Shown here: positions 1,965 to 55,830 of the stretch, piece by piece
Position numbering within the stretch: the first letter of the stretch is position 1
Layout of the letters: each line of letters starts with the position of its first letter
Assembly: GCA_016219645.1 (NCBI GenBank)
Contig: JACRLR010000053.1
Coordinates: 1 to 56,034 of the forward strand
Reading direction: 5' to 3'
From: Nitrospirota bacterium
GTDB taxonomy: Bacteria > Nitrospirota > Nitrospiria > Nitrospirales > Nitrospiraceae
DNA length: 56,034 bases
Program-made: the position numbers and the translations under genes
The notes under the pieces: generated by a model
Databases searched by the model: none
What the model saw: only the letters and a program-made list of their open reading frames with translations
What the model was told of the DNA's origin: nothing

Positions 1965-2352
1965 TGTGGCCAGGTTGGCTTTTACTGCGCGCATGGAGCG
2001 ACATAACTATTCCCTCCAGGTTTGCTCGTTTGCCCTTGTTTGGAACGGTACCCGTATCAGACCTGACTGCGGCCGTCGAACAAGGTCACAGATAATCCCT
2101 CCAAGCTCGCTAGTATTCTCTTCAGGGATGGGAGCTGATGGATCTTCTATTGCGCGCGTCGAACGAGCACATTCTGATCGTGCGCGTTCCGCGAGCACAA
2201 AGGGCAGTGGGCTACTCCTCACCCCTTCCTTCCAAGCTCGCTCGTTATTCTTAGGGATGGGGGCTGATTGATCTTCTACTGCGGGCGTCCAACGAGGGGA
2301 GTCCGCGACCGCGCGTTGCGCGAGCACAGAAGATCATCAGCCTCCATCCCCC
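1965..2352. repeat. Island of tandem hairpin repeats (family A, mixed and truncated copies)
   Basis: Four units of the dispersed hairpin family lie side by side. A truncated unit begins near 1965 (GGCCAGGTTGGCTTTTACTG). A second is cut after GCGGCCGTCGAAC near 2078. A third has a full core, GAACGAGCAC (2161-2170), loop ATTCTGATC, then GTGCGCGTTC (2180-2189), but arms that do not match each other. A fourth (about 2253-2352) has a variant core, GTCCAACGAGG through CGCGCGTTGCGCG. Its outer arms pair well, GGGATGGGGGCTGAT against ATCAGCCTCCATCCC. The phrase CTCCAAGCTCGCT recurs ahead of units three and four. No genes are visible from 1837 to 2413. Confidence 0.75.
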
Positions 2353-2413
2353 TCCCCTCTTCCCCCCATACGTAGGATTGCGGTTCTTTATTGGGGATCG
2401 TACTCTACGCAGT

Positions 2414-2866
2414 ATGACGGAGAGGAAACAGCCTATCCAGTGGCGAGCGGTCATGCAGGGGATAGCCATTGTGTATGGAGTCACCTTTGTGTCTGGACTG
2501 CTGCTGGCCTTCAACGGAATCACGCCACAGACCAATCACGTAGCCTTTCCAATCCTCGCGTTGCTCACTGGTGCAGTTGGAGTGGCGATCGCTCTCCGGG
2601 TTGCTGAAACCACACAGCTCTCGTATCTTGTGGCTCTTAGCTTGGGAGTCTGGCTCCTCAATTCGACTAGCGTCTTGCTCGGAGCACAGACTGTAGCCGC
2701 GTGGTTAGATAGTAGTCTATTCATTGGTACGACAGTGATCCTGGGCCGACTGCTGCTGGGAAGAGACTTAGAGACTCTGCCGACTTCCGATCTGTCTCAT
2801 TCCCAAATCATCTCCAAGAACAACTCACAGGTTGGGACACATCACGGGGTGAGATCGACTCTATAG
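2414..2866 (+). CDS. Small integral membrane protein, unknown function
   Basis: The predicted product is 150 aa from ATG 2414 (MTERKQPIQW). A TTG at 2378 would add 12 residues but has no better ribosome site. Four hydrophobic stretches look membrane-spanning: roughly residues 14-34 (IAIVYGVTFVSGLLLAF), 44-64, 68-88 and 92-116 (LLGAQTVAAWLDSSLFIGTT). The last 30 residues are polar and rich in Ser and Asn, probably a cytoplasmic tail. No family is recognised. It stands alone after the hairpin island and before a gap that ends in the small sigma54-controlled gene. Confidence 0.6.
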   Translation: MTERKQPIQWRAVMQGIAIVYGVTFVSGLLLAFNGITPQTNHVAFPILALLTGAVGVAIALRVAETTQLSYLVALSLGVWLLNSTSVLLGAQTVAAWLDSSLFIGTTVILGRLLLGRDLETLPTSDLSHSQIISKNNSQVGTHHGVRSTL

Positions 2867-3009
2867 ACCATGAACTCCTGATATCCCTCTCCAAATCCGA
2901 TCGGTTCACAACTGAGCCTCTTCCACCTTCCCACACTCCCGTCCCGGATGGGGTTAACCCAGCAGACATGAACGGCATCAACAGATTTGCCGTGAGGGAG
3001 AAAACACAA

Positions 3010-3033
3010 CAGCCAGCCCAAGAGGGCTGGCTG
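3010..3033 (-). terminator. Hairpin terminator downstream of the 34-aa gene
   Basis: CAGCCAGCCC (3010-3019) and GGGCTGGCTG (3024-3033) form a perfect 10-bp stem around AAGA. On the minus strand the stem is followed by TTGTGTTTTC, so it best serves minus-strand transcripts, namely the small gene ending at 3175. The stretch 2867-3009 holds no other feature I can support. Confidence 0.6.
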
Positions 3034-3174
3034 TCTAGTATGAGAACTATGTCTTGGAGGCTATAATCACGCGCTATTCATGAAGCGCAACGGGGTCGGG
3101 TCTTACAATCCAATCGTTTCCACCGCGTATCAGGGCAGCGCATGGTGAAGGAGCGGGGCGAACCTGATTCCAGG

Positions 3175-3279
3175 TTACTTCCCTGCTGCCATTCCCATGC
3201 CCATCGCCAAGACTCCGACCAAAACTGCGATCGAAATTCCCGCGGATACCATTCCATTGATCAGAGCAACAGTCGTCAT
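3175..3279 (-). CDS. 34-aa single-span membrane peptide under a sigma54 promoter
   Basis: A short frame from ATG 3279 to TAA 3175 encodes MTTVALINGMVSAGISIAVL followed by VGVLAMGMGMAAGK. It is preceded by a strong ribosome site, GGGAGGAGG, about six bases before the ATG. The peptide is almost entirely hydrophobic and glycine/methionine-rich, with a single membrane span from about residue 4 to 32 and a terminal Lys. About 85 bases upstream of the ATG lies a near-consensus sigma54 promoter, with twin dyads further up next to the activator gene, and a terminator follows. Promoter, ribosome site, frame and terminator together argue that it is a real gene. Its role is unknown; a small membrane stress or transport accessory peptide is conceivable. 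Confidence 0.65.
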   Translation of the reverse strand: MTTVALINGMVSAGISIAVLVGVLAMGMGMAAGK

Positions 3280-3360
3280 GATGTTCCTCCTCCCTGAGGG
3301 ACTTAGCATCCGGACCCAACCCTGGTAATGAGTGAGTCGTACATGCTGAACTCATGTACA

Positions 3361-3375
3361 GCAAACCGCGTGCCG
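3361..3375 (-). promoter_or_regulatory. Sigma54 (-24/-12) promoter
   Basis: On the minus strand the sequence reads CGGCACGCGGTTTGC followed by T. The consensus is TGGCACG-N4-TTGCW, so only the first base differs. The GG (3374-3373) and GC (3362-3361) elements are separated by exactly ten bases, as sigma54 requires. Transcription would start near 3350, leaving a leader of about 70 bases before the small gene at 3279. A perfect 7-bp inverted repeat, GTACATG/CATGTAC (3339-3359), covers the expected start and could be an operator or a leader hairpin. Confidence 0.75.
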
Positions 3376-3467
3376 ACTTATCTCGTCTCAATATAAAATC
3401 ATAAGCCATTGATATTTAGTTATTACTTTGCTTTATCTTTCAAAACAAACCATAGGACCATCCCGTC

Positions 3468-3509
3468 GCCCACGATCAGTCGCGTGGGTGCCCACGAATC
3501 ATCGTGGGC
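3468..3509 (-). promoter_or_regulatory. Twin dyads, likely enhancer (UAS) for the sigma54 activator
   Basis: Two adjacent inverted repeats share the half-site GCCCACGA. Site 1 (3468-3489) is GCCCACGA...CGCGTGGGT. Site 2 (3490-3509) is GCCCACGA-ATCA-TCGTGGGC, a perfect 8-bp dyad. They lie about 95-135 bases upstream of the sigma54 promoter, the usual distance for an enhancer bound by an AAA+ activator, and directly after that activator's gene. They could also work as a terminator for the activator gene, but no T-tract follows at once. Confidence 0.65.
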
Positions 3510-3567
3510 TAGAACAACTCATGAGTATAGTGTGGAGATCCTGCGGGAAGGGAGGAGCTATATCTTT

Positions 3568-5091
3568 TCAGCTGGAGGGAGGCCGCTTCATCCCAAACTG
3601 CTTCATTCGGCTGCGCAACGTGCTAGGAGGGATCCCCAAGCGTGCAGCCGCCCCAGAGGGACCTTCGATATGCCAATCCGTCAATGTGAGAGTTTGCAGT
3701 ATATGTCGGCGTTCAACTTCTTTGAGGTCGACCGGTGGCGAGGCAGCGATGGAGGAAGCCCGTGACCCTAAGACCTGTTCATCGACTCGTAATATAGACC
3801 CACGGGAGAGGATCAGCGCTCGTTCGATCACATTTTCCAGTTCACGGACATTGCCGGGCCAGGCATATCGCATCAACCTCTCTAGGGACTCCTGATCGAT
3901 GTCCTTGCACAAACGGTTGAATTTCAAACAGTACTGCTTCAGGAAATGCCGAGCCAATTCGGGGATATCCTCCGAGCGGTCCCTGAGTGGAGGCAAGAGG
4001 AGGGGAAAAACATTCAGCCGATAAAAAAGATCGGCGCGAAATGTCCCTTCCTTGACGGCAGCAGGTAAGTCACTATTGGTGGCAGCAATCACCCGAACAT
4101 CGACCCGAACGGGCTGTTTTCCCCCCAGGCGGTCTACCATGCCATCCTGCAAGACACGTAAGAGCTTCGCCTGTGTCTCTAACGGCATTTCACCGATTTC
4201 ATCCAAGAACAGCGTGCCACCATGTGCCAGTTCAAACCGGCCTTCCCGGGTTCGGTCCGCCCCGGTGAATGCGCCTCGCTCATGGCCGAAGAGTTCGCTT
4301 TCGACGAGCCCGGCCGGGAAAGCAGCACAGTTCACCCGCACCAACGGTTTTCGATGCCGCGGACTCCAATCATGGATCGCTTGCGCAATCAGTTCCTTAC
4401 CGGTGCCCGTTTCACCCATAATGAGCACGGTGGTTGGAGTCGGCGCTACCTCTCGAGCCAGAGCGATCACATTCTGAAAGACAAGGCTCTTCCCTATCAA
4501 AGAGTCGCTGTTCTTTTTGAGTTTCAGTTCTTCGATCAGGTAGACGTTTTCTTTGGCCAGCTGGTTTCGCAGTCGATCAATCTGTTCGTAGGCCTGGACA
4601 TGATCGATCGCATAAGCGATTTGCATGGCGACTTGCGTCAAGAACTCGAGGGCTCCCGGGTCAGGCACTCCGGACTCGATGCTGCCGATATTCAGAATTC
4701 CCAAACACTTGTCTCCCACGAGTAGAGGGAGATTGATGATTCTTCCAAGACCTTCTTGCACATACATCTGGTCTTCGGGGAAGACTTGCACCTGTTTCAG
4801 CTCCGGACGACAGTGGACAGCTTTGTGATCGTAGGCCCATCCCATCCCACTTCCGACGCGTGGAATCACCGCATCGCGTTGGAGCACCACCTGCGCCATC
4901 GTCGTGGCAACAACATAAAACCTGAACCCATCAACCTCCGAGTCATAAAGCGTAACCGTACACCGTGCCCAGGGGACGACCTTCGTAATCTCGGCCGTAA
5001 TCGCTTCCCACAGGCTATTCATCTCCCGCTGAGAATTGAGCACCACCGCCACAGCCAGAAGGGCTCGATAGTTTGTTTCAATCCGGTCCAT
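3568..5091 (-). CDS. GAF-domain sigma54-dependent transcription activator (FhlA/NorR type)
   Basis: This 507-aa protein is an enhancer-binding activator. An N-terminal GAF sensor domain (about residues 10-165) is followed by a coiled linker (165-195) and an AAA+ ATPase domain (about 197-425). Walker A is GETGTGKE (226-233), the sigma54 contact loop is GAFTGA (273-278), and Walker B is LFLDEIG (294-300). A C-terminal helix-turn-helix (about 460-500, ending in ARLGIPPSTLRSRMKQFGM) reads DNA. There is no receiver domain, so the signal is probably a small molecule, redox change or metal sensed by the GAF domain. The nearest sigma54 promoter and paired dyads lie just downstream on the same strand, ahead of a 34-aa membrane peptide gene, which is its most likely target. 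The specific ligand cannot be told. Confidence 0.9.
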   Translation of the reverse strand: MDRIETNYRALLAVAVVLNSQREMNSLWEAITAEITKVVPWARCTVTLYDSEVDGFRFYVVATTMAQVVLQRDAVIPRVGSGMGWAYDHKAVHCRPELKQVQVFPEDQMYVQEGLGRIINLPLLVGDKCLGILNIGSIESGVPDPGALEFLTQVAMQIAYAIDHVQAYEQIDRLRNQLAKENVYLIEELKLKKNSDSLIGKSLVFQNVIALAREVAPTPTTVLIMGETGTGKELIAQAIHDWSPRHRKPLVRVNCAAFPAGLVESELFGHERGAFTGADRTREGRFELAHGGTLFLDEIGEMPLETQAKLLRVLQDGMVDRLGGKQPVRVDVRVIAATNSDLPAAVKEGTFRADLFYRLNVFPLLLPPLRDRSEDIPELARHFLKQYCLKFNRLCKDIDQESLERLMRYAWPGNVRELENVIERALILSRGSILRVDEQVLGSRASSIAASPPVDLKEVERRHILQTLTLTDWHIEGPSGAAARLGIPPSTLRSRMKQFGMKRPPSS

Positions 5092-5239
5092 AGGCTCGTC
5101 GCATCCTCTCGCAATCCAAATTGAATCACAGACCGAATTTTATATTTAGCACGTCCTCGCAAAAAACTCGATCCTCCGATAGGCCATGCTCTTGCAACCA
5201 TTGGGCTCATCCCGGAAGCGGCCATACGGGAAGGAGTCT

Positions 5240-5335
5240 GGAATAGCACCCCTGCTGACCCCTTGCTCCCGGAACGCGCACGATCAGAATGTGCTCGTTC
5301 GACGGCCGCAGGAGGGTCAGCAGGGGTGCCATTCC
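5240..5335. repeat. Hairpin repeat, family A, with 27-bp pairing arms
   Basis: The conserved core is GAACGCGCAC (5272-5281), loop GATCAGAAT, then GTGCTCGTTC (5291-5300). The outer arms 5240-5266 (starting GGAATAGCACCCCTGCTGAC) and 5308-5335 pair over about 27 bp with only a few mismatches. This copy lies between two divergently transcribed genes, so it cannot simply be a terminator of either neighbour. The remaining bases of 5092-5438 hold the upstream region of the activator gene, with an AT-rich TATAAA near 5135-5150 on the minus strand. Confidence 0.8.
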
Positions 5336-5438
5336 TGTGGAAAGAACGAGTAAGCTTGGCCGCTTTCCCCCTGATCCCCTCTAATACCCCGCTAACGATA
5401 GGTTGACAGCCGGAAATCCAATCACTGAGAATGCCCCC

Positions 5439-6389
5439 ATGGCTGGAAAGATCATCATAGAGCGACTGGAGTTTCAAGGGCGCTGCGGTGTCACCTCAGA
5501 GGAGCGCAGGCGGCCGCAACCATTAGCGGTGGATCTTGAGCTGACCTGTCAGACCGAACCAGCTGCGGCTTCGGATGACATCCACAGTGCGGTCGACTAT
5601 GCGCAGGTCGCAGATCGAGTCCTCGCGGTCGGAGCGACGCAGAACTGCGCCCTGCTGGAAACATTCGCCGAGCGGCTCCTCGCGATGCTCTTTTCGGAGT
5701 TCCCCGTTGAATGGGCAAAGATCTGGCTGCGGAAACTTGAGCCACCCCTGAAGCATGTCACCGGCTCGGTAGGTGTGCAACTCGAACGATCGCGCCTGCT
5801 TCACCATATTCATGATGCGGGACCAACCCCGGCCCGGTTTCTTGTTCAGCAACTCCATCGCCTACCCAAAGGCAAGGCGCTTGATGTCGCGGCCGGAGCT
5901 GGACGCAACGCGCTCTATCTTGCTGCTCAAGGGTTTCACGTCGATGCGATAGACCGCGATGAAGCGGCCATGGTCCACCTTGCTGCCACGGCAAAGCAAC
6001 GGAACCTTCCAAATCTCACTGCCCGAACCGTTGACCTTGAACGAGCAACTGACGAACGGCCGGAATTCCCGAAGCAGGAGTATGACGTGATTGCCGTGTT
6101 CTTCTATCTCCATCGCGCACTGTTTCCGGCACTCCTCGAATCTCTGAAGCCGCACGGGGTTTTGATCTACGAAACCTTTATCATCGACAACTACTTGCGC
6201 CATCACCATCCTCGCCGATGGGAATTCTGCCTGGCACACAATGAATTGCTTCGGCTCACATCCACACTACGGGTCCTGTCCTACGATGAAGACGAACACA
6301 ACGGTAGCCATGGGCAAGGACCTGCCTATACTGCCCAACTCGTTGCCCAGCAAGCAGGCCCCAGCAGACTGTTACACGAGGCCACATGA
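5439..6389 (+). CDS. Dihydroneopterin aldolase domain fused to a SAM-dependent methyltransferase
   Basis: The N-terminal part (residues 1 to about 117 from ATG 5439) is FolB-like. IIIERLEFQGRCGVTSEERR is the first strand and loop. Then follow the substrate-site region DDIHSAVDYAQVADRV, LLETFAERL, and KLEPPLKHVTGSVGVQLER near residue 100. FolB splits dihydroneopterin to hydroxymethyl-dihydropterin in folate synthesis. The C-terminal part (about 130-315) is a class I methyltransferase of the TehB type, with motif I LDVAAGAGRNALYLAAQG and acidic DAIDRDE. The two domains are in one uninterrupted frame. A TTG at 5403 would add 12 residues. The stop overlaps the next ATG by 4 bases, so the PHP gene is co-translated. 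The methyltransferase substrate is unknown; a pterin is possible but unproven. Confidence 0.8.
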   Translation: MAGKIIIERLEFQGRCGVTSEERRRPQPLAVDLELTCQTEPAAASDDIHSAVDYAQVADRVLAVGATQNCALLETFAERLLAMLFSEFPVEWAKIWLRKLEPPLKHVTGSVGVQLERSRLLHHIHDAGPTPARFLVQQLHRLPKGKALDVAAGAGRNALYLAAQGFHVDAIDRDEAAMVHLAATAKQRNLPNLTARTVDLERATDERPEFPKQEYDVIAVFFYLHRALFPALLESLKPHGVLIYETFIIDNYLRHHHPRRWEFCLAHNELLRLTSTLRVLSYDEDEHNGSHGQGPAYTAQLVAQQAGPSRLLHEAT

Positions 6390-7234
6390 GTCGCATCGAT
6401 CTCCATCTACATACGACCCACTCCGATGGTAGCCTCTCGCCGGCAGAAGTGCTTCGGCTTGCCCACAAGGCGGGAGTTACAGCTCTGGCCATCACGGACC
6501 ATGATATTGTGTCCGGTATTCCCGAAGCCATGATGGCCGGAGCTGAGCTGGGAATTGAAATCATTCCCGGGGTGGAAATCAGTTCCCGTGTCGGCAATAG
6601 CGAACTTCATATCCTCGGTTATTGCTTGCGCTGGCAAGATCCTGAGCTGAATCAACGCATGGCCGCCTTGCGCGAGAGTCGGCATAACCGCAATCCGCAA
6701 ATCATTGAACGGCTGCGCGCACTTGGCTTGGACGTGACCTATGAAGAAGTGCGGGCCTTGGCGGGCACGGATTCGGTCGGACGACCTCATATCGCCAGGC
6801 TCTTGATGGACAAACAGTATGTCACGTCTGCCAAGGACGCCTTCGATCGATATCTGTCAGAGGGGCGCCCGGCCTATGTGGCGCGTGAACTGCCCACGCC
6901 GGCAGATGCCGTCTCCTGGATTAGAGCCGCAGGCGGAGTGGCCGTGTTGGCCCATCCAACCTGGGCGAAGGTATCCGGGGAGGGGCTGAATGCCCTCCTG
7001 ACGACATTGAAAGGCGACGGCCTCGGCGGCATTGAAGCCCACTACAGCACCCACACAAAGCGACAGACGACGGAGTACCTCGATCTGGCCAAGCGGTTGG
7101 ACTTATTGGTAACTGGCGGAAGTGATTTCCACGGCATCACCAAACCGGATATTGAAGTCGGTATTGGCCGTGGTGATCTAAAAGTTCCCCGGCGGCTGCT
7201 TGATCCGCTCAAAGAAGCCGCCCTCCTCGTTTGA
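6386..7234 (+). CDS. PHP-domain phosphoesterase (TrpH/YciV, RNase AM-like)
   Basis: This 282-aa protein begins with the PHP signature DLHLHTTHSDGS, with metal ligands His7 and His9, followed by ITDHD (about 37-41), PGVEISS (about 61-67), a central AHP motif (VLAHPTW, about 189-195) and GGSDFHG (about 246-252). These metal ligands are all present, so it should be an active metal-dependent phosphoesterase. The family members studied act on 3',5'-bisphosphonucleotides and trim 5' ends of RNA. It overlaps the FolB-methyltransferase gene by four bases. A long repeat-made hairpin follows its stop. Assignment to the family is firm; the physiological substrate is inferred. Confidence 0.85.
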   Translation: MSRIDLHLHTTHSDGSLSPAEVLRLAHKAGVTALAITDHDIVSGIPEAMMAGAELGIEIIPGVEISSRVGNSELHILGYCLRWQDPELNQRMAALRESRHNRNPQIIERLRALGLDVTYEEVRALAGTDSVGRPHIARLLMDKQYVTSAKDAFDRYLSEGRPAYVARELPTPADAVSWIRAAGGVAVLAHPTWAKVSGEGLNALLTTLKGDGLGGIEAHYSTHTKRQTTEYLDLAKRLDLLVTGGSDFHGITKPDIEVGIGRGDLKVPRRLLDPLKEAALLV

Positions 7235-7235
7235 G

Positions 7236-7336
7236 GGTTATTTGGTTTATTTGGTTCATCTGGTTTCTCTGGTTAACCTCATTCAACCAAATCAACCAAA
7301 CAAACCAAATAAACCAGATAAACCAGATGAACCAGC
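7236..7336. repeat. 9-bp AACCARATR repeat array arranged as a hairpin
   Basis: The left arm (7236-7277) is built of units GGTTTATTT, GGTTCATCT, GGTTTCTCT and GGTT. The right arm (7284-7334) holds complementary units AACCAAATC, AACCAAACA, AACCAAATA, AACCAGATA and AACCAGATG. Together they can fold into a long AU-rich hairpin just after the PHP gene. A second array of the same unit is at 40811-40911. It may act as a terminator, but its periodic build is unusual. Confidence 0.75.
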
Positions 7337-7452
7337 CGGTTTCCACGTTTCACGGGTATAGAGAACACCACGCTCATTATCTCCCAATTCGTTGACTCTC
7401 CTCCCCCATCCGCTACACTTTAAACCGATCACAAACATCTCCAAAGAGTCTT

Positions 7453-8853: not shown

Positions 8854-8864
8854 GGAGGTGCTGT

Positions 8865-9680: not shown

Positions 9681-9717
9681 CGATCACAGCAGCCTCAACC
9701 TGCCAGATCACGTCCGA

Positions 9718-10350: not shown

Positions 10351-10476
10351 GCATGGTCCTTATCTGTCCAGACCCAGCATAGGGTAAGCTGGCGAAAAAA
10401 TCGACGAATTGTCCGGTTTCTACCAGCAGGATGCTGAAAAGCCCCCCAGCGTTATCGGGAAGTCGGGCAGCAGAGG

Positions 10477-10575
10477 AAGGTCAAGGTTGAGGCTAAGGTT
10501 GAGCGAAGAGGACTCAGGGCGGTATGAATTTTTTGTCCCGACCTCAGCCTGAACCTTAACCTTAACCTCAACCTT
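10477..10575. repeat. Hairpin made of AAGGTT/AACCTT units
   Basis: The left arm AAGGTTGAGGCTAAGGTTGAG (within 10477-10503) pairs with the right arm (10543-10575), built from repeated AACCTT and CTCAACCTT units. It lies just beyond the stop of the minus-strand gene ending at 10584. It uses the same idea as the AACCARATR arrays: short repeats in opposite orientation that fold together after a gene. Confidence 0.6.
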
Positions 10576-10583
10576 CTTTATGG

Positions 10584-40810: not shown

Positions 40811-40911
40811 CCTGGACAGGTTGATCTGGTTTGTTTTGTTCAACTATTCAAACTAGATAAACCAAAGAAACCAAATAAACCAGATGAACCAGAGCGACCA
40901 GGCAGACCAAA
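40811..40911. repeat. Second AACCARATR repeat hairpin
   Basis: The left arm near 40812-40846 (GGTTGATCTGGTTTGTTTTG) pairs with the right arm 40854-40911, which contains AACCAAAGA, AACCAAATA and AACCAGATG units. This is the same 9-bp unit as at 7236-7336, 33 kb away. It lies downstream of the 51-codon frame at 40928 on the minus strand. The remainder of 40456-40927 holds nothing I can support. Confidence 0.65.
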
Positions 40912-41793: not shown

Positions 41794-41885
41794 GGAGCGG
41801 CCAGGCGCCCTTCTTGCTCGCAGAACGCGCACGATCAGAATGTGCTCGTCCGATGCGCGCAGTAAAGGGCAGCCTTGGCCACTCC
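41794..41885. repeat. Hairpin repeat, family A
   Basis: Core GAACGCGCAC (41823-41832), loop GATCAGAAT, then GTGCTCGTCC. The arms GGAGCGGCCAGGCGCCCTTC (41794 on) and AAGGGCAGCCTTGGCCACTCC pair with a few bulges. The arm sequence is close to that of the copies at 54150 and 55731, but unlike those at 5240, 42959 and 44497. No gene is visible from 41676 to 42096. Confidence 0.8.
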
Positions 41886-42096
41886 TTCCAGAGGCACAAC
41901 AAATTGGAAAGTGCCAGTCTCACGCGCGTTTTTGAGGATTTACCAAACTGCCTGGTAAAAGAAGTCAAGATTGGAGGCGCGGCGCAAGGAGGGAAGTCTG
42001 ACGAGAACGTGACGTGCACAGTCAAGCAATCACCCAGCGTCTATGCTCAACCACCGTAAGCTACTTTCACAGATTGTGGATGGCCGAAGCGGACGG

Positions 42097-42699: not shown

Positions 42700-42958
42700 A
42701 CGCACGGCTTTGCCACTTAGCGCGCCAAATGAACCGCGCACCAAAGCGACATGATTGCACGAGACGATTGGCGCGTCGGGGTCGGGTAAGTGAACAGTTT
42801 GGCCTTTCTAAACAGCCTGCGAATGAATGAAACAGAGTGTGTGAGTATCCGGACATCTCGTTTCAGTCATGCTCACATAGTTTGTCAAGACCTGCTAAGG
42901 GGAGCAGCCAGACTGTCCTTCACTGCAGGTGTTTCTCCATCCCCACCCACCGCTCAAA

Positions 42959-43054
42959 GGACTGGCAGCTGTGTTGATTCTACTGCGGCCGTCGAACGAG
43001 CACATTCTTATCGTGCGGGTTCCGGGAGCAAAGAACCGACACAGCTGTCAGTCC
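42959..43054. repeat. Hairpin repeat, family A, overlapping the plsY stop
   Basis: Core GAACGAGCAC (42994-43003), loop ATTCTTATC, then GTGCGGGTTC (43013-43022). The arms 42959-42986 (GGACTGGCAGCTGTGTTGAT on) and 43028-43054 pair over 27 bases with several mismatches. The right arm contains the plsY stop codon (43048-43050), so the element abuts the 3' end of that gene. The gap 42700-42958 shows nothing else. Confidence 0.8.
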
Positions 43055-43653
43055 TTCCGCTGCCCTATTTTACTCTCCGTCCCCTTCCAGAGACGGACGA
43101 TATTATCCTTGTGCTTAAACCAGATGAGCCCGCTTACAATCAGGGAAAAGACCAAGAATTCCTGCCGCTGTTCGTTGACAATCGCCACGACCGGAAGACA
43201 TGAAAAGGCTGCCAATGCACCGGCAGATGAATAGCGCCAGATCGCTACAGTCCCTAACCAGATCAACAACACGAGGAGTCCGATAGAAGGAGAGAGACCG
43301 AGCACTGCTCCCACTGCCGTCGCTACCCCCTTCCCTCCCTTGAAACCTAGAAATGGTGAGAAAAGATGCCCAAGAATTGGAGAAATCGCGACGACCATGA
43401 TGAAGGATTCATCCGTAAGCCACTGCATCGCAGCCCAGCCCAACAGCCACCCCTTCCCCATATCTCCGAGAAGAGTAAGAACGCCTGCTTTCGTACCCGA
43501 TACTCGGAGCACATTGGTGAAGCCGACGTTCTTGCTTCCGACCGTTCGTGGATCGGGAAGGCCTAGGGCCTTTGATACGACAACGCCGAAGGGAATGGCC
43601 CCCAGCAGATAGCCGACAACTGCAAACGCTGCCACTAACCCTGGATGATCCAT
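43048..43653 (-). CDS. plsY: Glycerol-3-phosphate acyltransferase PlsY
   Basis: The 201-aa inner-membrane protein transfers the acyl group of acyl-phosphate to glycerol 3-phosphate, the first step of phospholipid synthesis. Signature segments are YLLGAIPFGVVVSKALGLPD (15-34), DPRTVGSKNVGFTNVLRVSG (about 34-53, with the Gly-Ser-x-Asn-x-Gly site) and SPFLGFKGGKGVATAVGAVL (about 99-118). There are about five membrane spans. pgsA lies 64 bases upstream on the same strand, so the two phospholipid genes are probably one unit. Confidence 0.93.
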   Translation of the reverse strand: MDHPGLVAAFAVVGYLLGAIPFGVVVSKALGLPDPRTVGSKNVGFTNVLRVSGTKAGVLTLLGDMGKGWLLGWAAMQWLTDESFIMVVAISPILGHLFSPFLGFKGGKGVATAVGAVLGLSPSIGLLVLLIWLGTVAIWRYSSAGALAAFSCLPVVAIVNEQRQEFLVFSLIVSGLIWFKHKDNIVRLWKGTESKIGQRKD

Positions 43654-44314: not shown

Positions 44315-44496
44315 CGGTTACTCATTCCATTAGCCAGTCAGCAAGAAGAGTTCCATATTAGCACGATGGAACAGCATTCCATGACAGAATGCTCAAAATG
44401 TTCGCCCAGCAAGGCCGCAGCGATCTATCACTGACCAATGGGTGGATGGGATGCTCTCAACCGTGCGCGACTTCCCAATCCCCCATTTCACTTTCA

Positions 44497-44588
44497 GGGG
44501 TAGCCTGGTCGATCCTCGATTGCGCGCGTCGAACGAGCACATTCTGATCGTGCGCGTTCCGCGAGCAGGAGGACAACCAGACTACCCC
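44497..44588. repeat. Hairpin repeat, family A
   Basis: Core GAACGAGCAC (44531-44540), loop ATTCTGATC, then GTGCGCGTTC (44550-44559). The outer arms GGGGTAGCCTGGTCGATCCTC (44497-44517) and GAGGACAACCAGACTACCCC (44569-44588) pair well. The arm sequence is unlike that of every other copy in the window. It lies 24 bases beyond the kdsD stop. No gene is present from 44315 to 44612. Confidence 0.8.
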
Positions 44589-44612
44589 GCTCATTTTTCA
44601 GCATTCTGTAAA

Positions 44613-46468: not shown

Positions 46469-46596
46469 TTGAGGCGCTCAAACAGGCTATCCAACGAGGC
46501 CGCAGGCGAAGACAAGACCGGAGGCGTAGCCTCTGGGCTACGTTGAGGATCTTGTCGAGCCGAGAACGAAGTTGGGAGCCTGTTTCAGCGCCTCAA
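46469..46596. repeat. Hairpin repeat, family B (second core)
   Basis: The outer arms TTGAGGCGCTCAAACAGGCT (46469-46488) and AGCCTGTTTCAGCGCCTCAA (46577-46596) pair with a single mismatch. Between them lies a core with GACAAGACC/ATCTTGTC pairing and GGCGTAGCCTCTGGGCTACG at the tip. It starts one base after the pyrG stop. The layout, a conserved-looking core within long pairing arms, matches family A but the sequence is unrelated. Confidence 0.7.
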
Positions 46597-46597
46597 C

Positions 46598-48199: not shown

Positions 48200-48245
48200 C
48201 GTGGTCTCCGTCCGTTGCGATCGGATAATTCTAACCCGCATCCCG

Positions 48246-49034
48246 TCATGATCGGATCGATGTGTGAACCTGCCTGCTCAGCTCAAGCTGTCGCAATGTC
48301 TCGCTCACCGATACGGCATCCGCTGGCGTATCGACCCGCAGCGATTCATGCTTGGTTTCCCAGACTCGAATGGGGATGCGGTACTCCAGCGCGCGCAACT
48401 GTTCCAATTTCTCGGCATCCTCCAGCACGCCCGTCGGCAGGGCCGCTAAATTCAACAGCATCTCACGGGTATAGATGTAGACCCCCAAGTGGATATAGTG
48501 CAATCCCTCCATGGCTCGCCTGCTAGGATCGTCCCGGACCAGTGGAATCGGTGCGCGCGAAAAGTACAGCGCCTGGCCTTGCTGATTGGTCACCACCTTG
48601 ACGACGGCCGGATTCAGCAGATCGTCGCTGGACGTAATGGCGCGTTTGAGTGTCCCCATCTGGGCATCGGACTCGACAAACGGTTCAATGAGATCGGCCA
48701 ACAGATCCGGATTGACCGGAATCTCGTCCCCTTGCAGATCGACAAAGAACCCGCCTGTGCGCGTGCGCGCAACGCCGGCCACACGATCGGTCCCGGTTCG
48801 AAACTCACCGGCCATCACAATCGCCTGTCCACCGAACTGCTCGACTGCCTGTTTGATCCGCTCGTCGTCGGTGGCGACCAAGACCTCTGTCACCACACGG
48901 CATGCCGCTGCTTGCTCATAGACATGCTGAATCATGGGCTTCCGGCCGAGCATGGCAAGAGGTTTTCCTGGAAAGCGCGACGACCCGTACCGGGCCGGAA
49001 TCACCACGATGACGGATGGCGTCGCATTAGTCAT
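48246..49034 (-). CDS. kdsB: 3-deoxy-manno-octulosonate cytidylyltransferase (KdsB)
   Basis: The 262-aa enzyme activates Kdo with CTP to give CMP-Kdo for lipopolysaccharide. It starts at ATG 49034 ([20 protein letters not shown]), which overlaps the stop of the upstream kinase gene by eight bases; a longer upstream frame is unlikely. Motifs are [20 protein letters not shown] (nucleotide-binding loop), [17 protein letters not shown] and [14 protein letters not shown] with GLHYIH. It ends 46 bases before pyrG. Confidence 0.94.
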
Positions 49035-50088: not shown

Positions 50089-50837
50089 CTGACCCACTCC
50101 GTCATTTGCCCCTGACCATTCCACGACCAGTAAATACGGAATGCCTTCCCACGAATTTTCTCCTCGCGCACAAATCCCCAGAACCGGCTGTCCAAACTTT
50201 GGTCGCGATTGTCACCCATCACGAAATAGGCGCCGTCAGGCACGGTGACCGGCCCGAAATTGTCGCGCGGATTGATCGTGCCGTCGATGATTCCCGGATC
50301 GATCCGTTGGGTGAAGGATTTATCCTCGAGCACGACCCCGTTCACCAACACGGCTTTGTTGCGAAGTTGGACTGTATCACCCGGAGTCCCAACGATCCGT
50401 TTGATGAAGTCCTTTTCCTCGTCTTCTGGAAACCGGAACACGATGATATCTCCCCGCTGGGGCTTGCCGAATTCGATAAGGGCCTGCGAAGCATAGCAAT
50501 TGACGGGAGGAAAACTCGCTGAAAATTTGCACTGGCTGGGCCATTGAATACCATACGCGAGCTTGCTGACCAGGATATGATCCCCGATCAACAACGTGGG
50601 AATCATTGAGCCGGAAGGAATCTTAAAGGCTTGGACAACAAACACCCGGATCGCAAAAGCCAGAAGCATCGCAACGACAATGGCCTCCGCATACTCGCGA
50701 ACGAGCGACTTTCTGCCTGACGGTGCCACAACCGATGGTTCGGCGAACACCGCCGGCGCACCCGCGGCATCCGATTGGCTCTGCGGGGCCGATGGCCTGA
50801 TATCGTCCGACGGGGGCAGCTTCGGCTCTCCGCTCAC
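50058..50837 (-). CDS. lepB: Signal peptidase I
   Basis: The 259-aa protease removes signal peptides from exported proteins. A cytoplasmic, Pro/Ala-rich N-terminus (about 1-50) precedes a membrane span (about 50-70). The catalytic Ser is Ser77 in PSGSMIPT, and the general base Lys is Lys146 in FIKRIVG. A further box, [20 protein letters not shown], completes the family. The gene overlaps lepA by four bases and the kinase gene by 31. A long, acidic N-terminal tail is unusual but seen in other members. Confidence 0.93.
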
Positions 50838-52633
50838 TCTTCACCCACTTTCAAGATGGCAAGAAAGGCTTCCTGCGGCACTTCCACGCTCCCTACGGAT
50901 TTCATGCGCTTCTTTCCTTCTTTCTGTTTTTCAAGGAGCTTGCGCTTCCGCGTGATATCGCCGCCGTAACACTTTGCAAGGACGTTCTTCTTCATGGCCC
51001 CAATCGTCTCACGCGCAATGATCTTGCTCCCGATTGCCGCTTGAATGGCGATCTCATACATCTGCCGGGGAATGAGCTCTTTCATCTTCTCGGCGAGCTG
51101 ACGCCCCCGCTGAATAGAACGATCCTTGTGCGTGATAAACGACAGGGCATCGACCGCCTCGCCGTTCAAGAGAATATCAAGCCTCACGAGATCGGACTCA
51201 CGGTAGCCGAGCAGCTCGTAATCGAGCGACGCATAGCCCTGGGTGCGCGACTTGAGCTTATCGTAAAAATCGAGAATCACTTCGTTGAGCGGCAGTTCAT
51301 AACTGATCACCACCCGCGTCGGATCGAGAAAGTGCATGCCTTGCTGGATACCGCGGCGTTCCTGGCAGAGCTGTAAGATAGCTCCCATATACCGTTCAGG
51401 AGTAATGATCGACGCCAGAATGAACGGCTCCTCAAATGAGTCGATACTGCTGGGAGGCGGGAGCTGCGTCGGGTTATTGACCTCTAACACCTCTCCTTTG
51501 GTCGTCAGCACCCGATAGACAACGGTCGGCGCGGTTGTGAGAAGCGTCAGGTTATATTCACGCTCGAGCCGCTCCTGAATGATTTCCATGTGCAGCAGAC
51601 CCAAAAAGCCGCATCGGAAGCCGAACCCGAGCGCGAGGGACGTCTCCGGTTCGTAGACGAAGGAGGAGTCGTTCAGTCTCAACTTGATCAGCGCATCGCG
51701 CAGATCTTCGTACCGGCCTGTGTCGGTGGGATAGAGACCGCAAAACACCAGAGGCTTCACTTCCTTATAGCCGGGGAACGGCGCGCTCGTCGGCGAGACC
51801 GCATCCGTGAGCGTATCGCCGATCTTCACATCCGCGACTTCTCGCATATTCGCGCACAGATACCCGACCTCGCCGGTCAACAGCTCACTCTTTTTCACCC
51901 GTTTCGGGGTAAATTGGCCGACTTCCATCACTTCGAACGTTCGGTCGTTCGACATAACTTTGATCTTCATCCCCGGCCGTAATGATCCGTCTACGACTCT
52001 CGTCAACACGATCACTCCTTGATAATTGTCAAACCAGGAATCGAAAATGAGCGACTTGAGCGGCGCGTCTGGATTGCCTGACGGGGGAGGAATCCGCGCA
52101 ATGATCGCCTCCAACACCTCCGGCACGCCCTTTCCCTCTTTCGCGCTGATGGGCAGGGCATCGCTGGCATCAAGCTGCAAGATTTCCGAGATCGACTGCT
52201 TCGTACCTTCCAGGTCGGCGCTCGCAAGATCGATCTTATTGATCACGGGGATAATCGTCAGGTTATTGGCCATCGCCAGGTTCACGTTGGCGATGGTCTG
52301 AGCCTGGACCCCCTGCGTTGCATCGACAAGTAAGAGCGCCCCCTCACAAGCCGCCAAACTGCGCGACACTTCATAGGTAAAGTCGACGTGACCCGGCGTA
52401 TCGATCAAATGCAAGGCATAGGTCTTCCCATCCTTGGCCTTATACCGGACCGCCACCGCGTGGGCCTTGATCGTGATTCCGCGTTCACGCTCCAAGTCCA
52501 TGGCGTCGAGAATCTGGTCTTTCGATTCTCGGGCCGTGACTGCGCCAGTGGCTTCCAGAAACCGGTCAGCGAGGGTTGATTTGCCGTGATCGATATGGGC
52601 GATAATCGAGAAATTGCGTATCAGGCTTTGCAA
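50834..52633 (-). CDS. lepA: Elongation factor 4 (LepA) GTPase
   Basis: The 599-aa translational GTPase acts on stalled ribosomes. The G1 motif is [14 protein letters not shown] (about 12-25), G2 [11 protein letters not shown]3 [10 protein letters not shown] and G4 [10 protein letters not shown]. The LepA-specific C-terminal domain reads [20 protein letters not shown] with [20 protein letters not shown] at the end. Length is normal. It starts a minus-strand operon lepA-lepB-kinase-kdsB, a common bacterial order of lepA followed by lepB. Confidence 0.95.
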
Positions 52634-52753
52634 ATCCTAACTCATTTCCCAATAAAATCGATTCATTATAGTGACCGGCCCCAAGGTTGTCAAAGCAAAC
52701 GCCCCCTCGTATACTCCGCATCGCGCCTCGTCGACAGCCTCGGATAAGAGCCT

Positions 52754-54142
52754 ATGGCACCACAACCTTCCGCACAACAGCTGATCGATTGGGATCACCG
52801 ATACCTCTGGCATCCCTTCACCCAAATGCAGGAGTGGGAACAGGAGAAGCCGCTCATTATCGAAAAGGGAAAAGGGTCGTACCTGATTGACAAGGCAGGG
52901 AAGAAGTATCTCGACGGCACTTCCTCCATCTGGGTCAATCTCCATGGCCACCAGCATCCGACCCTCGACCGGGCGATCAAGAAGCAACTGGATAAGATCG
53001 CCCATTCATCGCTCTTCGGACTCTCCAATCCACCGGCGATTGAACTCGCGCGAGCCTTGATCAAGATCGTACCCAAAGGGCTTGCGAGGGTATTTTATTC
53101 CGACGATGGATCGACGGCGGTCGAAATCGCGCTCAAAATGGCGGTCCAGTACTGGCAACTCCGACGGCCTGAAGCCGGCCCCAAGAATACGTTTCTCCAC
53201 CTCACGCTCGCCTACCATGGCGATACGATCGGGGCCGTGAGCGTGGGCAATATCGACCTCTTCCATGGCCGATTCAAGTTGCTGCTCTTCCCCACAGCCG
53301 AAGCAGACCCACCCTATTGCTATCGTTGTCCTCTCAATCTAACCTACCCTTCCTGCCAGATGGCCTGCCTGGACCCGATTGAGCAGATCCTCAAAGACCG
53401 TCACCGTGAACTGGCCGGTTTCATCATCGAGCCGCTCGTGCAAGCAGCAGCAGGCATGCTGACTTCCCCTCCTGGCTATCTGAAGCGTGTTCGGGATCTC
53501 TGTACCAAATATGATGTCCTCCTCATTGCCGATGAAGTGGCTACAGGATTCGGCCGTACCGGCAAGATGTTCGCCTGCCAGCATGAAGGGGTCACACCAG
53601 ACTTGATGGCCATCAGCAAAGGGTTGACCGGCGGCTACATGCCGTTGGCCGCAACGCTCACCACAGACGAAATCTACCAGGCCTTTCTCGGCAAGTATGA
53701 AGATTTCAAAACGTTCTTCCACGGCCACAGTTACACAGGCAATCCACTCGGCTGCGCCGTGGCGCTGGCCAACATCGACATCTTCCAGAAAGAAAAGACG
53801 CTCGCTCGACTGCAACCCAAGATTAAGAAGATGAGGCAATTGTTATTGCCGCTCAAACAACAGCCCCATGTCGGTGAGATCCGGCAGCAGGGATTCATCG
53901 TGGCCATTGAGTTGGTGGAAGACAAACAGACGAAGAAGCCCTATCCGCTCGAAACGCGGGTCGGGCATCGAGTATCGATGGAGGCGTGCAGCCGAGGGCT
54001 CTTACTCCGCCCGATCGGCAACGTGATGATTCTCATGCCACCACTCAGCACTTCCATTCAAGAACTCAGACGCATGGTTGAAATTCTGAAGGAAGCCATT
54101 GAGGCCATTACCTTTGGCACCAAGGCCAACACCAGCTCATGA
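52754..54142 (+). CDS. bioA: Adenosylmethionine-8-amino-7-oxononanoate aminotransferase
   Basis: The 462-aa PLP enzyme is the third-last step of biotin synthesis, using S-adenosylmethionine as amino donor. It starts MAPQPSAQQLIDWDHRYLWH (IDWDHRYLWHPFTQM is typical of BioA). The PLP aspartate is in LLIADEVATGFGRTGKMFAC (about 255-274). The lysine that forms the Schiff base lies in DLMAISKGLTGGYMPLAATL (about 283-302). HGHSYTGNPLGCAVALANID follows. No other bio genes are nearby. Its 3' end is partly repeated at 55643-55694. Confidence 0.94.
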   Translation: MAPQPSAQQLIDWDHRYLWHPFTQMQEWEQEKPLIIEKGKGSYLIDKAGKKYLDGTSSIWVNLHGHQHPTLDRAIKKQLDKIAHSSLFGLSNPPAIELARALIKIVPKGLARVFYSDDGSTAVEIALKMAVQYWQLRRPEAGPKNTFLHLTLAYHGDTIGAVSVGNIDLFHGRFKLLLFPTAEADPPYCYRCPLNLTYPSCQMACLDPIEQILKDRHRELAGFIIEPLVQAAAGMLTSPPGYLKRVRDLCTKYDVLLIADEVATGFGRTGKMFACQHEGVTPDLMAISKGLTGGYMPLAATLTTDEIYQAFLGKYEDFKTFFHGHSYTGNPLGCAVALANIDIFQKEKTLARLQPKIKKMRQLLLPLKQQPHVGEIRQQGFIVAIELVEDKQTKKPYPLETRVGHRVSMEACSRGLLLRPIGNVMILMPPLSTSIQELRRMVEILKEAIEAITFGTKANTSS

Positions 54143-54149
54143 TTCAAGA

Positions 54150-54248
54150 GGAGGGAGCGGCCAGGTGCCCTCTTTGCCCGCAGAACGCGCACGATCAGAA
54201 TGTGCTCGTTCGATGCGCGCAGTCGAGGGCAACCTTGGCCACCCCCTC
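54150..54248. repeat. Hairpin repeat, family A, downstream of bioA
   Basis: The core GAACGCGCAC (54183-54192), loop GATCAGAAT and GTGCTCGTTC (54202-54211) lie within arms GGAGGGAGCGGCCAGGTGCC (54151 on) and GGCAACCTTGGCCACCCCCTCC. The arms pair with small mismatches. They are near-identical to those of the copy at 55731-55830 because the whole segment, including the bioA 3' end, was duplicated. Confidence 0.8.
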
Positions 54249-54277
54249 CAAGACAGGGAAAGAGGGATAGGGGGAAA

Positions 54278-54450
54278 AGAATGGGGCCTGGCGATTCCCT
54301 GTGCTCGCGCAACGCGCGGTCGCAGGCTCCCCCCTCGCTCGGGCTAATGGCACGTCTCGGCGTGCCAGCGGGTGGGCGGGTGAGAAGGTTACGCGCAGTG
54401 GAAGATCAATCAGCCCCCATCCCCGAAGAGAGAACGAGTAAGCTTGGACG
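54278..54450. repeat. Variant (type 2) hairpin repeat with mismatched arms
   Basis: The core GTGCTCGCGCAACGCGCGGT (54301-54320) matches, in reverse complement, the variant core at 2253-2352. The right flank CGCAGTGGAAGATCAATCAG and CCCCCATCCC also matches that copy, and AACGAGTAAGCTTGG recurs at 5340. The left arm (GGGCCTGGCGATTCCCTG) does not pair with the right arm, so this copy looks recombined. Confidence 0.6.
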
Positions 54451-54536
54451 CAACATCACATACCAGGAGGGATCGACCGGATCACGAGAAAAAAGTAGAA
54501 TGACTCTGTTTCTTGGGTTCACCATACGGAGGGGTT

Positions 54537-55517
54537 ATGAAAGTAGTGTCTAGTTCACTGTTACTTGCTGTGCTGAGTGTCACCGCGATCGACGTCCAGG
54601 CGGCCTGGTCTGCGCTGCGCATGGCCTGCGACGGAGACGACGTAGGAGCGGAAGTGTCCATCAATGGGGTGTTCAAGGGCGAATGCCCGCTCGACCTACA
54701 AGTGAGCGCTGGCACGGTGCAGCTCACGGTGCTGAAGACCCTCAACACCTCGCACGTACGGACCTTTGAGCAAGACATCCGCATGGGTGACGGGGTCGTC
54801 ACAAAAGTCGCGGTCATCGAGCAGGGGCAACTCACCGCCAAAGGCAAGGGCATCGAAGCTGAACGGCAGCGTCAGGCGCAGGAGCCTGGTCATGACGCCA
54901 CCCTGAGGGCGCTGGTGCCGGAGGGGGAGTTCCTGTATGGAAACGACAAGCAACGGCTGTCTCTGTCAGCCTTCTATATGGATAAGTTTGAAGTGAGTAC
55001 CGCGCAATATGCCAAGTTCATGGCGGCGACGGGCGCGAAGGAGCCGAAGTACTGGCCGACGTCGGGGTTGGTCAGCCATGACCAGAAGCCGGTGGTGGGC
55101 GTGTCCTGGTCCGAGGCAGATGCCTATTGCCGTCACTATCACAAACGGTTGCCGACGGAACAGGAGTGGGAGAAAGCGATGCGGGGAACGGATGGACGGA
55201 ACTATCCTTGGGGCAACGAGGAACCGACAGGCCGCCATGTCAATTCTAACAAGAACAGCAATGACTATAATGACTACGGGCCCCTGATCAGGGCTTGGTT
55301 TCTGGAGGGGGGCAAGAGCCCCTACGGGATCCTTGATCGAGCTGGGAATGTGTGGGAATGGACCAGTTCAGACTACGACAGGGGCCAGAAGGTGCTCCGC
55401 GGCGGGGCGTGGTTCTATCAGGCGTTCTACTGGGGGTCCACGGACCGGCTCGGGGGGACCCCTGACTCCAGGGACAGGGATTTTGGGTTCCGTTGTGCCC
55501 AGGATGTTCGGAAGTAA
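54537..55517 (+). CDS. Secreted PEGA-like/SUMF1-fold protein
   Basis: From ATG 54537 (after GGAGGGG) the 326-aa product has a signal peptide (MKVVSSSLLLAVLSVTAIDV, cut after Ala22). A PEGA-like domain follows (about 28-105, ALRMACDGDDVGAEVSINGV), then a formylglycine-generating-enzyme (SUMF1) fold (about 125-326). The latter has YGNDKQRLSLSAFYMDKFEV, YPWGNEEPTGRHV, GNVWEWTSSDYD, KVLRGGAWF and GFRCAQ. The region that carries the catalytic cysteine pair of true FGEs reads AFYWGSTDRLGG, without cysteines. It is therefore probably not an active FGE but a binding or structural protein of this fold in the periplasm. It is flanked by duplicated DNA. Confidence 0.8.
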   Translation: MKVVSSSLLLAVLSVTAIDVQAAWSALRMACDGDDVGAEVSINGVFKGECPLDLQVSAGTVQLTVLKTLNTSHVRTFEQDIRMGDGVVTKVAVIEQGQLTAKGKGIEAERQRQAQEPGHDATLRALVPEGEFLYGNDKQRLSLSAFYMDKFEVSTAQYAKFMAATGAKEPKYWPTSGLVSHDQKPVVGVSWSEADAYCRHYHKRLPTEQEWEKAMRGTDGRNYPWGNEEPTGRHVNSNKNSNDYNDYGPLIRAWFLEGGKSPYGILDRAGNVWEWTSSDYDRGQKVLRGGAWFYQAFYWGSTDRLGGTPDSRDRDFGFRCAQDVRK

Positions 55518-55550
55518 CCCTGTGCCGATCTGTGGACCCCCGGTAAATCG

Positions 55551-55642
55551 GTGGACACGAGAATGGGGACATTCTGAATTGTATGAGCCCTCGAGCCCTT
55601 ATCCAGACAAACAATTCAGAATGTTCCCCTTCCGTCGTCCAC
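55551..55642. repeat. Inverted repeat after the SUMF1-fold gene
   Basis: GGGGACATTCTGAATTGT (55565-55582) and ACAATTCAGAATGTTCCCC (55611-55629) pair around about 28 bases, with GTGGAC/GTCCAC further out (55551-55556 and 55637-55642). It could be a terminator or the remains of a small mobile element. It ends exactly where the copy of the bioA 3' end begins. Confidence 0.6.
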
Positions 55643-55694
55643 AGAACTCAGACCTATGGTCGAAATTCTAAGGGAAGCCATTGAGGCCATTACC
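55643..55694 (+). pseudogene. Duplicated 3' fragment of bioA
   Basis: The segment matches bioA 54061-54112 with only a few changes; AGGAAGCCATTGAGGCCATT, for example, recurs as AGGGAAGCCATTGAGGCCAT. No start or upstream bioA sequence is present. Together with the following hairpin copy it forms a direct duplicate of about 190 bp that flanks the SUMF1-fold gene unit. Confidence 0.75.
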
Positions 55695-55730
55695 CTACTC
55701 CCTGATTCCAGCCCGGGGTCATGAAACAGG

Positions 55731-55830
55731 AGGAGGGAGTGGCCAGGTGCCTTCCTTGCTCGCAGAACGCGCACGATCAGAATGTGCTCGTTCGATGCGC
55801 GCAGTAGAAGGCAACCTGGCTACTCCCTCC
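55731..55830. repeat. Hairpin repeat, family A (duplicate of the bioA copy)
   Basis: The core GAACGCGCAC (55764-55773), loop GATCAGAAT and GTGCTCGTTC (55783-55792) sit within arms GGAGGGAGTGGCCAGGTGCC and GGCAACCTGGCTACTCCCTCC. The arms carry paired changes relative to the copy at 54150 (for example TGGCCAGGTGCC with CCTGGCTACTCC), so pairing is kept although the sequence differs. Confidence 0.8.

Follow-up and report, generated by a model that had tools for sequence, protein, structure and literature searches.

A probably mobile hairpin repeat of Nitrospira, with a constant tip and variable paired arms, that nests in the tips of its relatives

A stretch of 56,034 nucleotides of Nitrospirota DNA (contig JACRLR010000053.1 of assembly GCA_016219645.1; the window, meaning the whole stretch at its full length) contains dispersed hairpins whose core is nearly constant, whereas their outer arms differ from copy to copy and yet pair with each other inside each copy. 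How can arms vary and still remain complementary? The original prediction, made from the letters of the window, dismissed simple copying and proposed either insertion of the core into the loops of existing hairpins or paired evolution of the arms under selection for structure. Comparison of the 3.65-Mb source genome (G000), of which the window is one contig (C53), with related genomes partly supports this proposal: loop insertion and paired arm change both occur, and neither alone explains the pattern. The hairpins are best read, with a probability of about 0.6, as a mobile palindromic family specific to the Nitrospiraceae, which is copied as whole units and has the 3′ side of genes and other hairpins' tips as landing places.

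The core GAACGMGCAC-loop-GTGCKCGTTC was found genome-wide in 66 exact copies and in 77 when up to one mismatch was allowed; the reversed pattern, used as control, gave no match in G000. The near-constancy that had been claimed for the core is thus real, but the conserved part is larger than described. It is an apical, strand-asymmetric domain of ∼48 nt, which in 79 extracted copies spans approximately AYTGCGCGCRTC through GAACGAGCAC-N9-GTGCGCGTTC to YGCGAGCA; the stem outside of it varies and yet stays paired. The asymmetry consists of one G·A mismatch per helix and an unpaired TC, all retained while adjacent pairs co-change. The inner stem starts with G-A or C-A, the loop region comprises 9 nt, and the tail YGCGAGCA is paired with the outer helix. 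Among 79 distinct cores, 97.8% of the cells of the tip were paired and double changes were present in 7 of 13 pairs; the covariation score was 0.226, compared with 0.087 for shuffled and at most 0.115 for slid structures, and the count of further pair types was not exceptional (77 of 500 shuffles reached it). A second core type (CAACGAGG...CCGCGCGTTG) has its layout in common with type 1; the 16-mer of its right half gave 91 matches at up to one mismatch, part of them in half-elements. Besides these, two rarer tip types exist. With the paired arms, which lie outside the 48-nt tip, a complete unit measures ∼90–130 nt.

With 100 candidates scored in each genome, a tip covariance model matched 39 of 61 genomes: all 32 of the genus (10 to 100 matches each), all five from the family's other genera (2 to 32 each), and 2 of 24 from elsewhere in the order (one match each). 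When the related genome G018 was searched alone, 123 matches were obtained. Named plsY loci gave a similar restriction, in that 17 of 80 matched at E 0.001, all of them titled Nitrospira, Nitrospirae or Nitrospiraceae. As judged by PlsY (best 96%), the closest named relatives are assemblies labelled "Nitrospirae bacterium" or "Nitrospira sp.", and the relatives compared are ∼80–88% identical over genes.

That the arms differ between copies yet pair within each was borne out by the duplex energies of the 79 extracted copies, which averaged −41.6 kcal/mol for own arms and −25.2 kcal/mol for swapped arms; the own partner was the best of all in 39 of them. The arm duplex fell below −25 kcal/mol in 109 of 116 copies in G000 and in 89 of 99 in G018, compared with 38% and 27% of swaps, respectively, and the arms are broken in a few copies (e.g., window 2161, L029:1501, L031:2895, and L063:2008). 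The variability of the arms is, however, far from unlimited. In the stretches fetched, both arms belonged to one recurring family in 94 of 117 cores of G000 (27 A, 21 B, 12 D, and 11 F among them; about a dozen families in all) and in 60 of 103 cores of G018, the families having been defined by eye from G000 and the resulting tokens applied to G018 as well. Six cores in G000 and 13 in G018 combined arms of two different families, and the remainder fell partly or wholly outside the families. Copying together with the arms, which the prediction had dismissed, covers most copies. Genome-wide copies with identical arms, named beforehand as an outcome that would speak against the prediction, are in part what is found, as most copies share recurring arm families. 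Families D and E occur with both tip types. The copies of the window match whole hairpins, including the arms, in four relatives, mostly at 84–96%.

Hairpins of this family lie inside one another. When half-hairpins were marked along the sequence, balanced strings emerged, such as D< G< B< B> G> D> at locus L001 and A< F< G< G> F> A> at L002, nested up to three deep in G000. Of 117 cores in this genome, 20 were flanked by a left and a right half-hairpin, and in 17 of these 20 the halves were of matching family, compared with a permutation mean of 3.5 and a maximum of 10 among 20,000 permutations (p about 5e-5); a further 26 cores were flanked by just the left half and 4 by just the right half. 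Irrespective of family assignment, complementary outer flanks were present at 21 of 115 cores (22 of 116 in another run) versus 3.2 expected, a count reached in none of 5,000 permutations. Local complementarity was adopted here as a second measure after outer flanks of 119 and 85 nt had given duplex energies that did not separate own from swapped pairs in either genome. The inserted units carry their own arms, and their spacing to the host halves is regular for some families: 28–30 nt on the left and 27–29 nt on the right for inner A (seven A-in-D/E/F loci), 40–42 and 27–29 nt for inner G (three loci), and 51 and 12 nt for inner F (two loci). The left spacers of inner B vary (43, 86, and 130). 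In most A and B nests, the right junction lies directly before CCTTC, or a close variant thereof, in the apical loop of the host. Loop insertion as originally proposed holds to the extent that whole hairpins nest in tips and that one orthologous site differs by a layer (see below); bare cores in unrelated stems were not found.

Turnover can be read from 15 pairs of orthologous sites in G000 and G018, hand-picked from a longer list and classed by eye. The hairpin is absent in G018 at five of them (L005, L008, L038:4291, L049:860, and L090), different or mosaic at another five (L006, L007, L029, L038:3826, and L043), and keeps its arms with a different tip type at two (L023/L235 and L098/L247). 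At three sites, the outer hairpin or half of it is retained and the content of the tip differs. The layer difference is that between L084, J(F), and its orthologue L220, J(F(B)); at L016 an A hairpin stands with half an E, and the orthologous L196 is an intact E; and the G018 orthologue of L049:1757 has the stem of that copy closed by a short core remnant. Sites without a copy lack its arms, too, for example L049:860 and L008 in G018, and at none of the sites read was a copy's own stem closed by an unrelated loop. After plsY, the genomes G000, G018, G023, and G001 have a similar hairpin with paired differences, and G030, G005, G003, and G004 carry another arm family. The copy between pgsA and kpsF is lacking in three of four relatives compared. 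Flank inversion at insertion (a snap-back making the new arm) was considered for copies with unique arms and found unsupported, as no one-armed site with a unique arm was seen; the one-armed sites that do exist, such as that after bioA in G023, are read as truncations because their arm belongs to a recurring family.

Paired arm change at a fixed site is best documented between sucC and sucD. A hairpin lies shortly 3′ of the sucC stop codon in 19 of 22 loci of the genus, one of which (G020) is degenerate. No hairpin was present at this site in G005, G006, and G007 or in eight outgroup loci read, where the tip model gave no match at E 0.1, and none of these 11 core-less loci holds the arms without the core, as judged by eye. 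In an alignment of 18 of the 19 hairpins (that of G020 was left out before counting), 95.9% of 540 cells were paired; both sides had changed in 75 cells, compared with 28.8 in shuffles, and the covariation score was 0.379 versus 0.164 shuffled and at most 0.080 slid, the double-change and covariation counts being inflated by kinship among the sequences. Further pair types did not exceed those in shuffles (494 of 500 reached the count). The SucC gene tree, in which 8 of 19 inner branches are weak, conflicts with the hairpin types: G000, G022, and G011 have nearly the same hairpin but are not grouped, and G011 groups with G021, G017, and G008 (support 100/99), which have another type. Alleles thus also seem to move between species, by what looks like lateral exchange of the sucC|sucD intergenic allele. 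Paired evolution of the arms is consequently supported at this site, although allele exchange contributes to the pattern, and selection is not separable from template-switch repair. Two further observations were made at this site. Hairpin and flanks are near-identical in G000, G022, and G011 (L256, L263, and L273), and L258, from G012, shows one hairpin type followed by the start of the other, which is either an allele tandem or an assembly chimaera.

The hairpins often follow genes. Based on crude picks of open reading frames (ORFs) as gene calls, copies lie at a median of 63 nt past the upstream stop codon and 207 nt ahead of the next gene, and the arrangement of genes around them resembles the background; 19 of 110 copies in G000 and 16 of 95 in G018 lie within called ORFs, possibly spurious ones. 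Where the flanking genes are co-directional, 71 of 89 copies have the GAACGAG strand opposite to transcription (38 of 48 in G000 and 33 of 41 in G018; p 1.3e-8, with orthologues kept in, so that the copies are not all independent), whereas orientation is split 18 of 32 between convergent and 8 of 23 between divergent genes. Replication strand as the sole cause of this bias was rejected, as copies of both strands alternate within contigs; the coding-strand skew at third codon positions (GC3 skew) differs weakly between the orientations (p 0.04), and replication direction may be a partial confounder.

Taken together, the pattern would arise if whole hairpins, arms included, were copied to new places, often just past stop codons, and if units inserted between co-directional genes often pointed their GAACGAG strand against transcription. 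Another landing place would be the loop at the apex of a second hairpin, so that elements stack two or three deep, as they do in G000. Tips may be swapped between elements while the arms stay, presumably by gene conversion or template switching, and the paired change of arms at a fixed site may come about because one arm is copied from the other by template switching, because selection maintains the hairpin, or for both reasons. The mover could be a trans-acting activity that recognizes the folded tip of single-stranded or cruciform hairpins. A more specific version of this scheme is tentative and has, in our estimate, somewhat less than an even chance: a self-nesting, non-coding "matryoshka" repeat that targets folded hairpin tips, above all those of its own relatives, with the constant tip as an exchangeable cartridge and stems renewed in pairs, building ever larger hairpins 3′ of genes throughout a bacterial family. 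Several findings weigh against copying and nesting as outlined. The signal of nesting is strong in G000, but G018 taken by itself gives a weak one: matched halves there were 3 of 12 (permutation mean 1.75, p 0.25; left half only at 19 cores, right half only at 16) with arm tokens that derive from G000, and the family-free count was 5 of 98 versus 1.6, reached in 80 of 5,000 permutations. Nor is each of the 17 matched loci of G000 an independent case: L009 and L010 are near-copies, and the seven A-in-D/E/F loci have common spacers, so that a small number of insertions, with outer arms exchanged afterwards, may account for them. A direct repeat of 4–6 nt can be seen by eye at two of five B-in-host junctions (L220 and L093) and not at the other three, and about 10 nt of the host tip are missing from the A-in-host loci. 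Finally, no candidate mover was found among Y1_Tnp, the only transposase family searched.

Some of the above would also be expected if the hairpins were functional RNA, that is, 3′-untranslated or intercistronic structures that stabilize mRNA or tune operons, with the tip as a site for a protein or RNase and mobility as a secondary trait. The orientation against transcription shortly after stop codons, the recurrence of the sucC|sucD hairpin with double-changed pairs, and the strand-asymmetric tip with its conserved mismatches all point that way, and the orientation bias leaves room for an RNA role. As the primary explanation it is nevertheless unlikely, given the high turnover (absent, different, or mosaic at 10 of the 15 orthologous sites laid out), the possible share of replication strand in the orientation, and the background-like gene arrangement; moreover, a search of the window against Rfam 15 (E up to 1) returned three hits far below gathering scores, none of them at the hairpins. 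An artefact of assembly or metagenome binning, with inverted chimaeras at repeats, might be suspected because the compared genomes are many-contig assemblies and because some G030 contigs break off at or within a copy. Yet many assemblies have the same hairpins at orthologous positions, with paired changes particular to each species, and every genome of the genus gave matches, which makes this explanation almost certainly wrong.

Insertion of a bare core into the loops of unrelated, pre-existing hairpins, the arms being inherited from the site, could account for copies with non-recurring arms (L047:5766, L038:3981, and L049:909), for the tip types that differ on retained arms at L098/L247 and L023/L235, and for the nearly tipless stem of L049:1757 in G018. 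That stem, however, keeps outer parts of the core, which fits tip loss better. Recurring-family arms on most copies of G000, arms that come along with nested units, copy-less sites without arms, and the 11 core-less sucC|sucD loci make the insertion of bare cores very unlikely. We consider it just as improbable that the hairpins are repetitive extragenic palindromes (REPs) moved in the known manner by a Y1 transposase (TnpA-REP, or REP-associated tyrosine transposase, RAYT), despite their being palindromic, multi-copy, intergenic, 3′ of genes, and asymmetric. The tetranucleotide before the inner stem, the first two bases of which pair with the outer helix, is CGTC in 47 of 79 copies (TGTC in 2, CATC in 30), as in the CGTC-tagged REPs described in the passages covered of PMC3733652, and the left arm region contains GGAG or GTAG in 39 of 79 (GTAG in 15). 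These latter motifs, however, lie within the paired arm and not at an unpaired foot, and none of the 79 copies has a GT[AG]G-type tetranucleotide at the inner foot. A Y1_Tnp gene is present in G000 as a single 324-residue open frame (L069:922-1893), but the 3.3-kb locus around it contains no core, and Y1_Tnp remained unmatched at E 0.001 in 13 of 32 genomes of the genus, including G001, which is 99% complete and has 84 core matches. With one gene in G000, not beside the repeat, and a patchy occurrence in the genus, Y1_Tnp was rejected as the mover. Copying of whole hairpins remains our preferred explanation.

The copies of the window (Table 1) sit among genes such as plsY, pgsA, kpsF, and bioA, and most of the predicted ones were recovered. 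Those at about 5240, 41794, 42957, 44497, 54150, and 55731 fold as anticipated with paired arms, and the truncated pieces near 1965 and 2020 turned out to be left halves of families B and C. The copy at 2110-2230, in contrast, has poorly paired arms: they come from two families, pair with −18.1 kcal/mol only, and 69 of the other right arms would pair better. That at 2253, listed as a GAACGMGCAC copy, carries the type-2 core in a like layout. The one at 54278 is a hairpin, as claimed, but an F-like one of type 2 with an interrupted tip. The half E hairpin next to the A hairpin is probably the remnant of a host hairpin.

Table 1. Hairpins and half-hairpins of the repeat family in the window.
Position	Strand	Feature	Basis
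1962..1994	+	Truncated copy, just the left half of a family B hairpin (limits approximate)	Token match, sequence
2042..2074	+	Truncated copy, just the left half of a family C hairpin (limits approximate)	Token match, sequence
2150..2197	+	Type-1 core; mosaic copy with a family F arm on the left and a B-like arm on the right, poor pairing	Pattern, arm duplex, tokens
2279..2326	+	Type-2 core within a family F hairpin (about 2245-2350)	Pattern, tokens
5240..5335	-	Hairpin with type-1 core (5264-5311); arms 22 nt, 95% complementary	Fold, pattern
41794..41888	-	Family B hairpin, core 41815-41862	Sequence, pattern
42957..43056	+	Hairpin at the plsY stop codon, core 42983-43030	Fold; similar hairpin at the same place in G018, G023, G001
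44440..44469	+	Left half of a family E hairpin; the A hairpin follows after 28 nt	Token match
44498..44587	+	Family A hairpin between pgsA and kpsF, core 44520-44567	In G030; absent in G005, G018, G023
54150..54251	-	Family B hairpin 3′ of bioA, core 54175-54222	Orthologous in G018; half-arm only in G023; mosaic in G030
54281..54456	-	F-like type-2 hairpin, tip interrupted by a small hairpin (GGCACG..CGTGCC)	Sequence, matches in relatives
55732..55830	-	Family B hairpin 3′ of the FGE-sulfatase-domain gene, core 55757-55804	Fold, pattern

At window 43048-43056, the arm overlaps the plsY stop codon, and so the last plsY codons are part of the stem. The FGE-sulfatase-domain gene (window 54513-55517) belongs to a large paralogous group with 19 matches in G000 at E 1e-20; it was unusable as an orthology anchor because of its many paralogues. 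Other palindromes accompany the repeat. A family Z (GCAGGATGCTSAAAAAGTCCGCCAGC and its inverse partner, often about 125 bp) gave 115 matches at up to three mismatches in G000; Z-like ends frame 19 of 114 core hairpins in G000 and 5 of 95 in G018, a Z-like palindrome adjoins the Y1_Tnp frame of L069 at about 1936-2070, and Z palindromes host other palindromes in their own tip (L378-L407). A third family consists of purine-rich repeats (AAGGTTGAGGCTAAGGTTGAG and inverse; window 10483-10575, L005, L378, and L382) and is also found within Z tips. A fourth, of TGGTTTATTTGGTT-type repeats, is present at window 7235-7334 and 40819-40890 and at L239; one of these repeats occupies the G018 site orthologous to L090. 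The inverted repeat TTGAGGCGCTCAAACAGGCT at window 46469-46596 has many matches in four relatives.

The repeat lends itself to studying how short non-coding palindromes can spread when no transposase is obvious, and whether it is selection or template switching that produces the paired changes of long stems. Dozens of genomes provide orthologous sites at which such changes, differing tips, and extra layers can be compared. It also calls for caution, as covariation, usually taken as a sign of functional RNA, can arise in a mobile DNA repeat.

Among known systems, a few share single traits with the Nitrospira hairpins. Miniature inverted-repeat transposable elements (MITEs) have terminal inverted repeats shared with an autonomous element; the arms of the hairpins are inverted repeats, and the search for a partner covered Y1_Tnp. 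MITEs also have a target-site duplication, whereas the nests have the short direct repeats mentioned above at two of five B-in-host junctions and none at the other three. The attC sites of integrons are folded, strand-asymmetric hairpins of variable sequence, with conserved ends and a variable centre. The Nitrospira hairpins have the opposite layout, a conserved centre and variable ends, as had been noted at the outset. REPs mobilized by RAYTs have the Y1 gene flanked by repeats, which is not so at the single Y1_Tnp locus of G000. The remaining comparisons rest on the passages covered of the papers cited. Titles and the starts of abstracts yielded no description of this Nitrospira repeat in a literature coverage from which subscription journals were mostly absent. 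Under the strict definition, REPs are extragenic, palindromic, and multi-copy, share a consensus, and have a short unit, 14–40 nt in Escherichia coli (PMC12306157); the hairpins agree with all but the last trait, as they measure ∼90–105 nt, with arms outside the 48-nt tip. Closer are the GTAG- and CGTC-tagged REPs, high-copy intergenic palindromes mostly 3′ of genes, with families that have alternative complementary stem residues (Di Nocera et al, 2013; PMC3733652), and part of the Nitrospira copies likewise have CGTC before the inner stem. Some of these REPs lie inside longer palindromes (GTAG-15 of A. variabilis, CGTC-1 of H. neapolitanus, and GTAG-23 of T. roseum), and GTAG-24 of P. aeruginosa has unpaired GA residues (PMC3733652). 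The CGTC-tagged REP has an unpaired CGTC (often TGTC or CCTC) directly before a stem of 8–9 bp with complementary A-T in positions 1 and 2, a loop of 4–5, and the tail CCA (PMC3733652); in stem, loop, and tail, the Nitrospira hairpins depart from it, and their unit of 90–130 nt, constant tip, variable stem, and tip nesting up to three deep set them apart from both REP groups. Template switching during the origin of hairpins provides a mutational route to complementary arms; the study in question, by its title, deals with RNA hairpins generally and not with a mobile family (PMC8794818). Insertion sequence (IS) elements are known to enter REPs at their axis of symmetry (Tobes and Pareja, 2006; PMC1525189), so that the apex of a palindrome is the target there as well, but the Nitrospira hairpins enter their own family. 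Together with the REPs that lie inside longer palindromes, these insertions are a precedent for the landing site. The nearest precedent for nesting is the merging, at the same homologous site, of the GC clusters of yeast mitochondria, short mobile palindromes with presence/absence between strains and interspecies exchange (PMC4478555); these are mitochondrial, and the passages covered describe no constant tip with covarying arms. The Nitrospira hairpins are most likely REP/MITE-like mobile palindromes, and any placement in a known REP class would be tentative.

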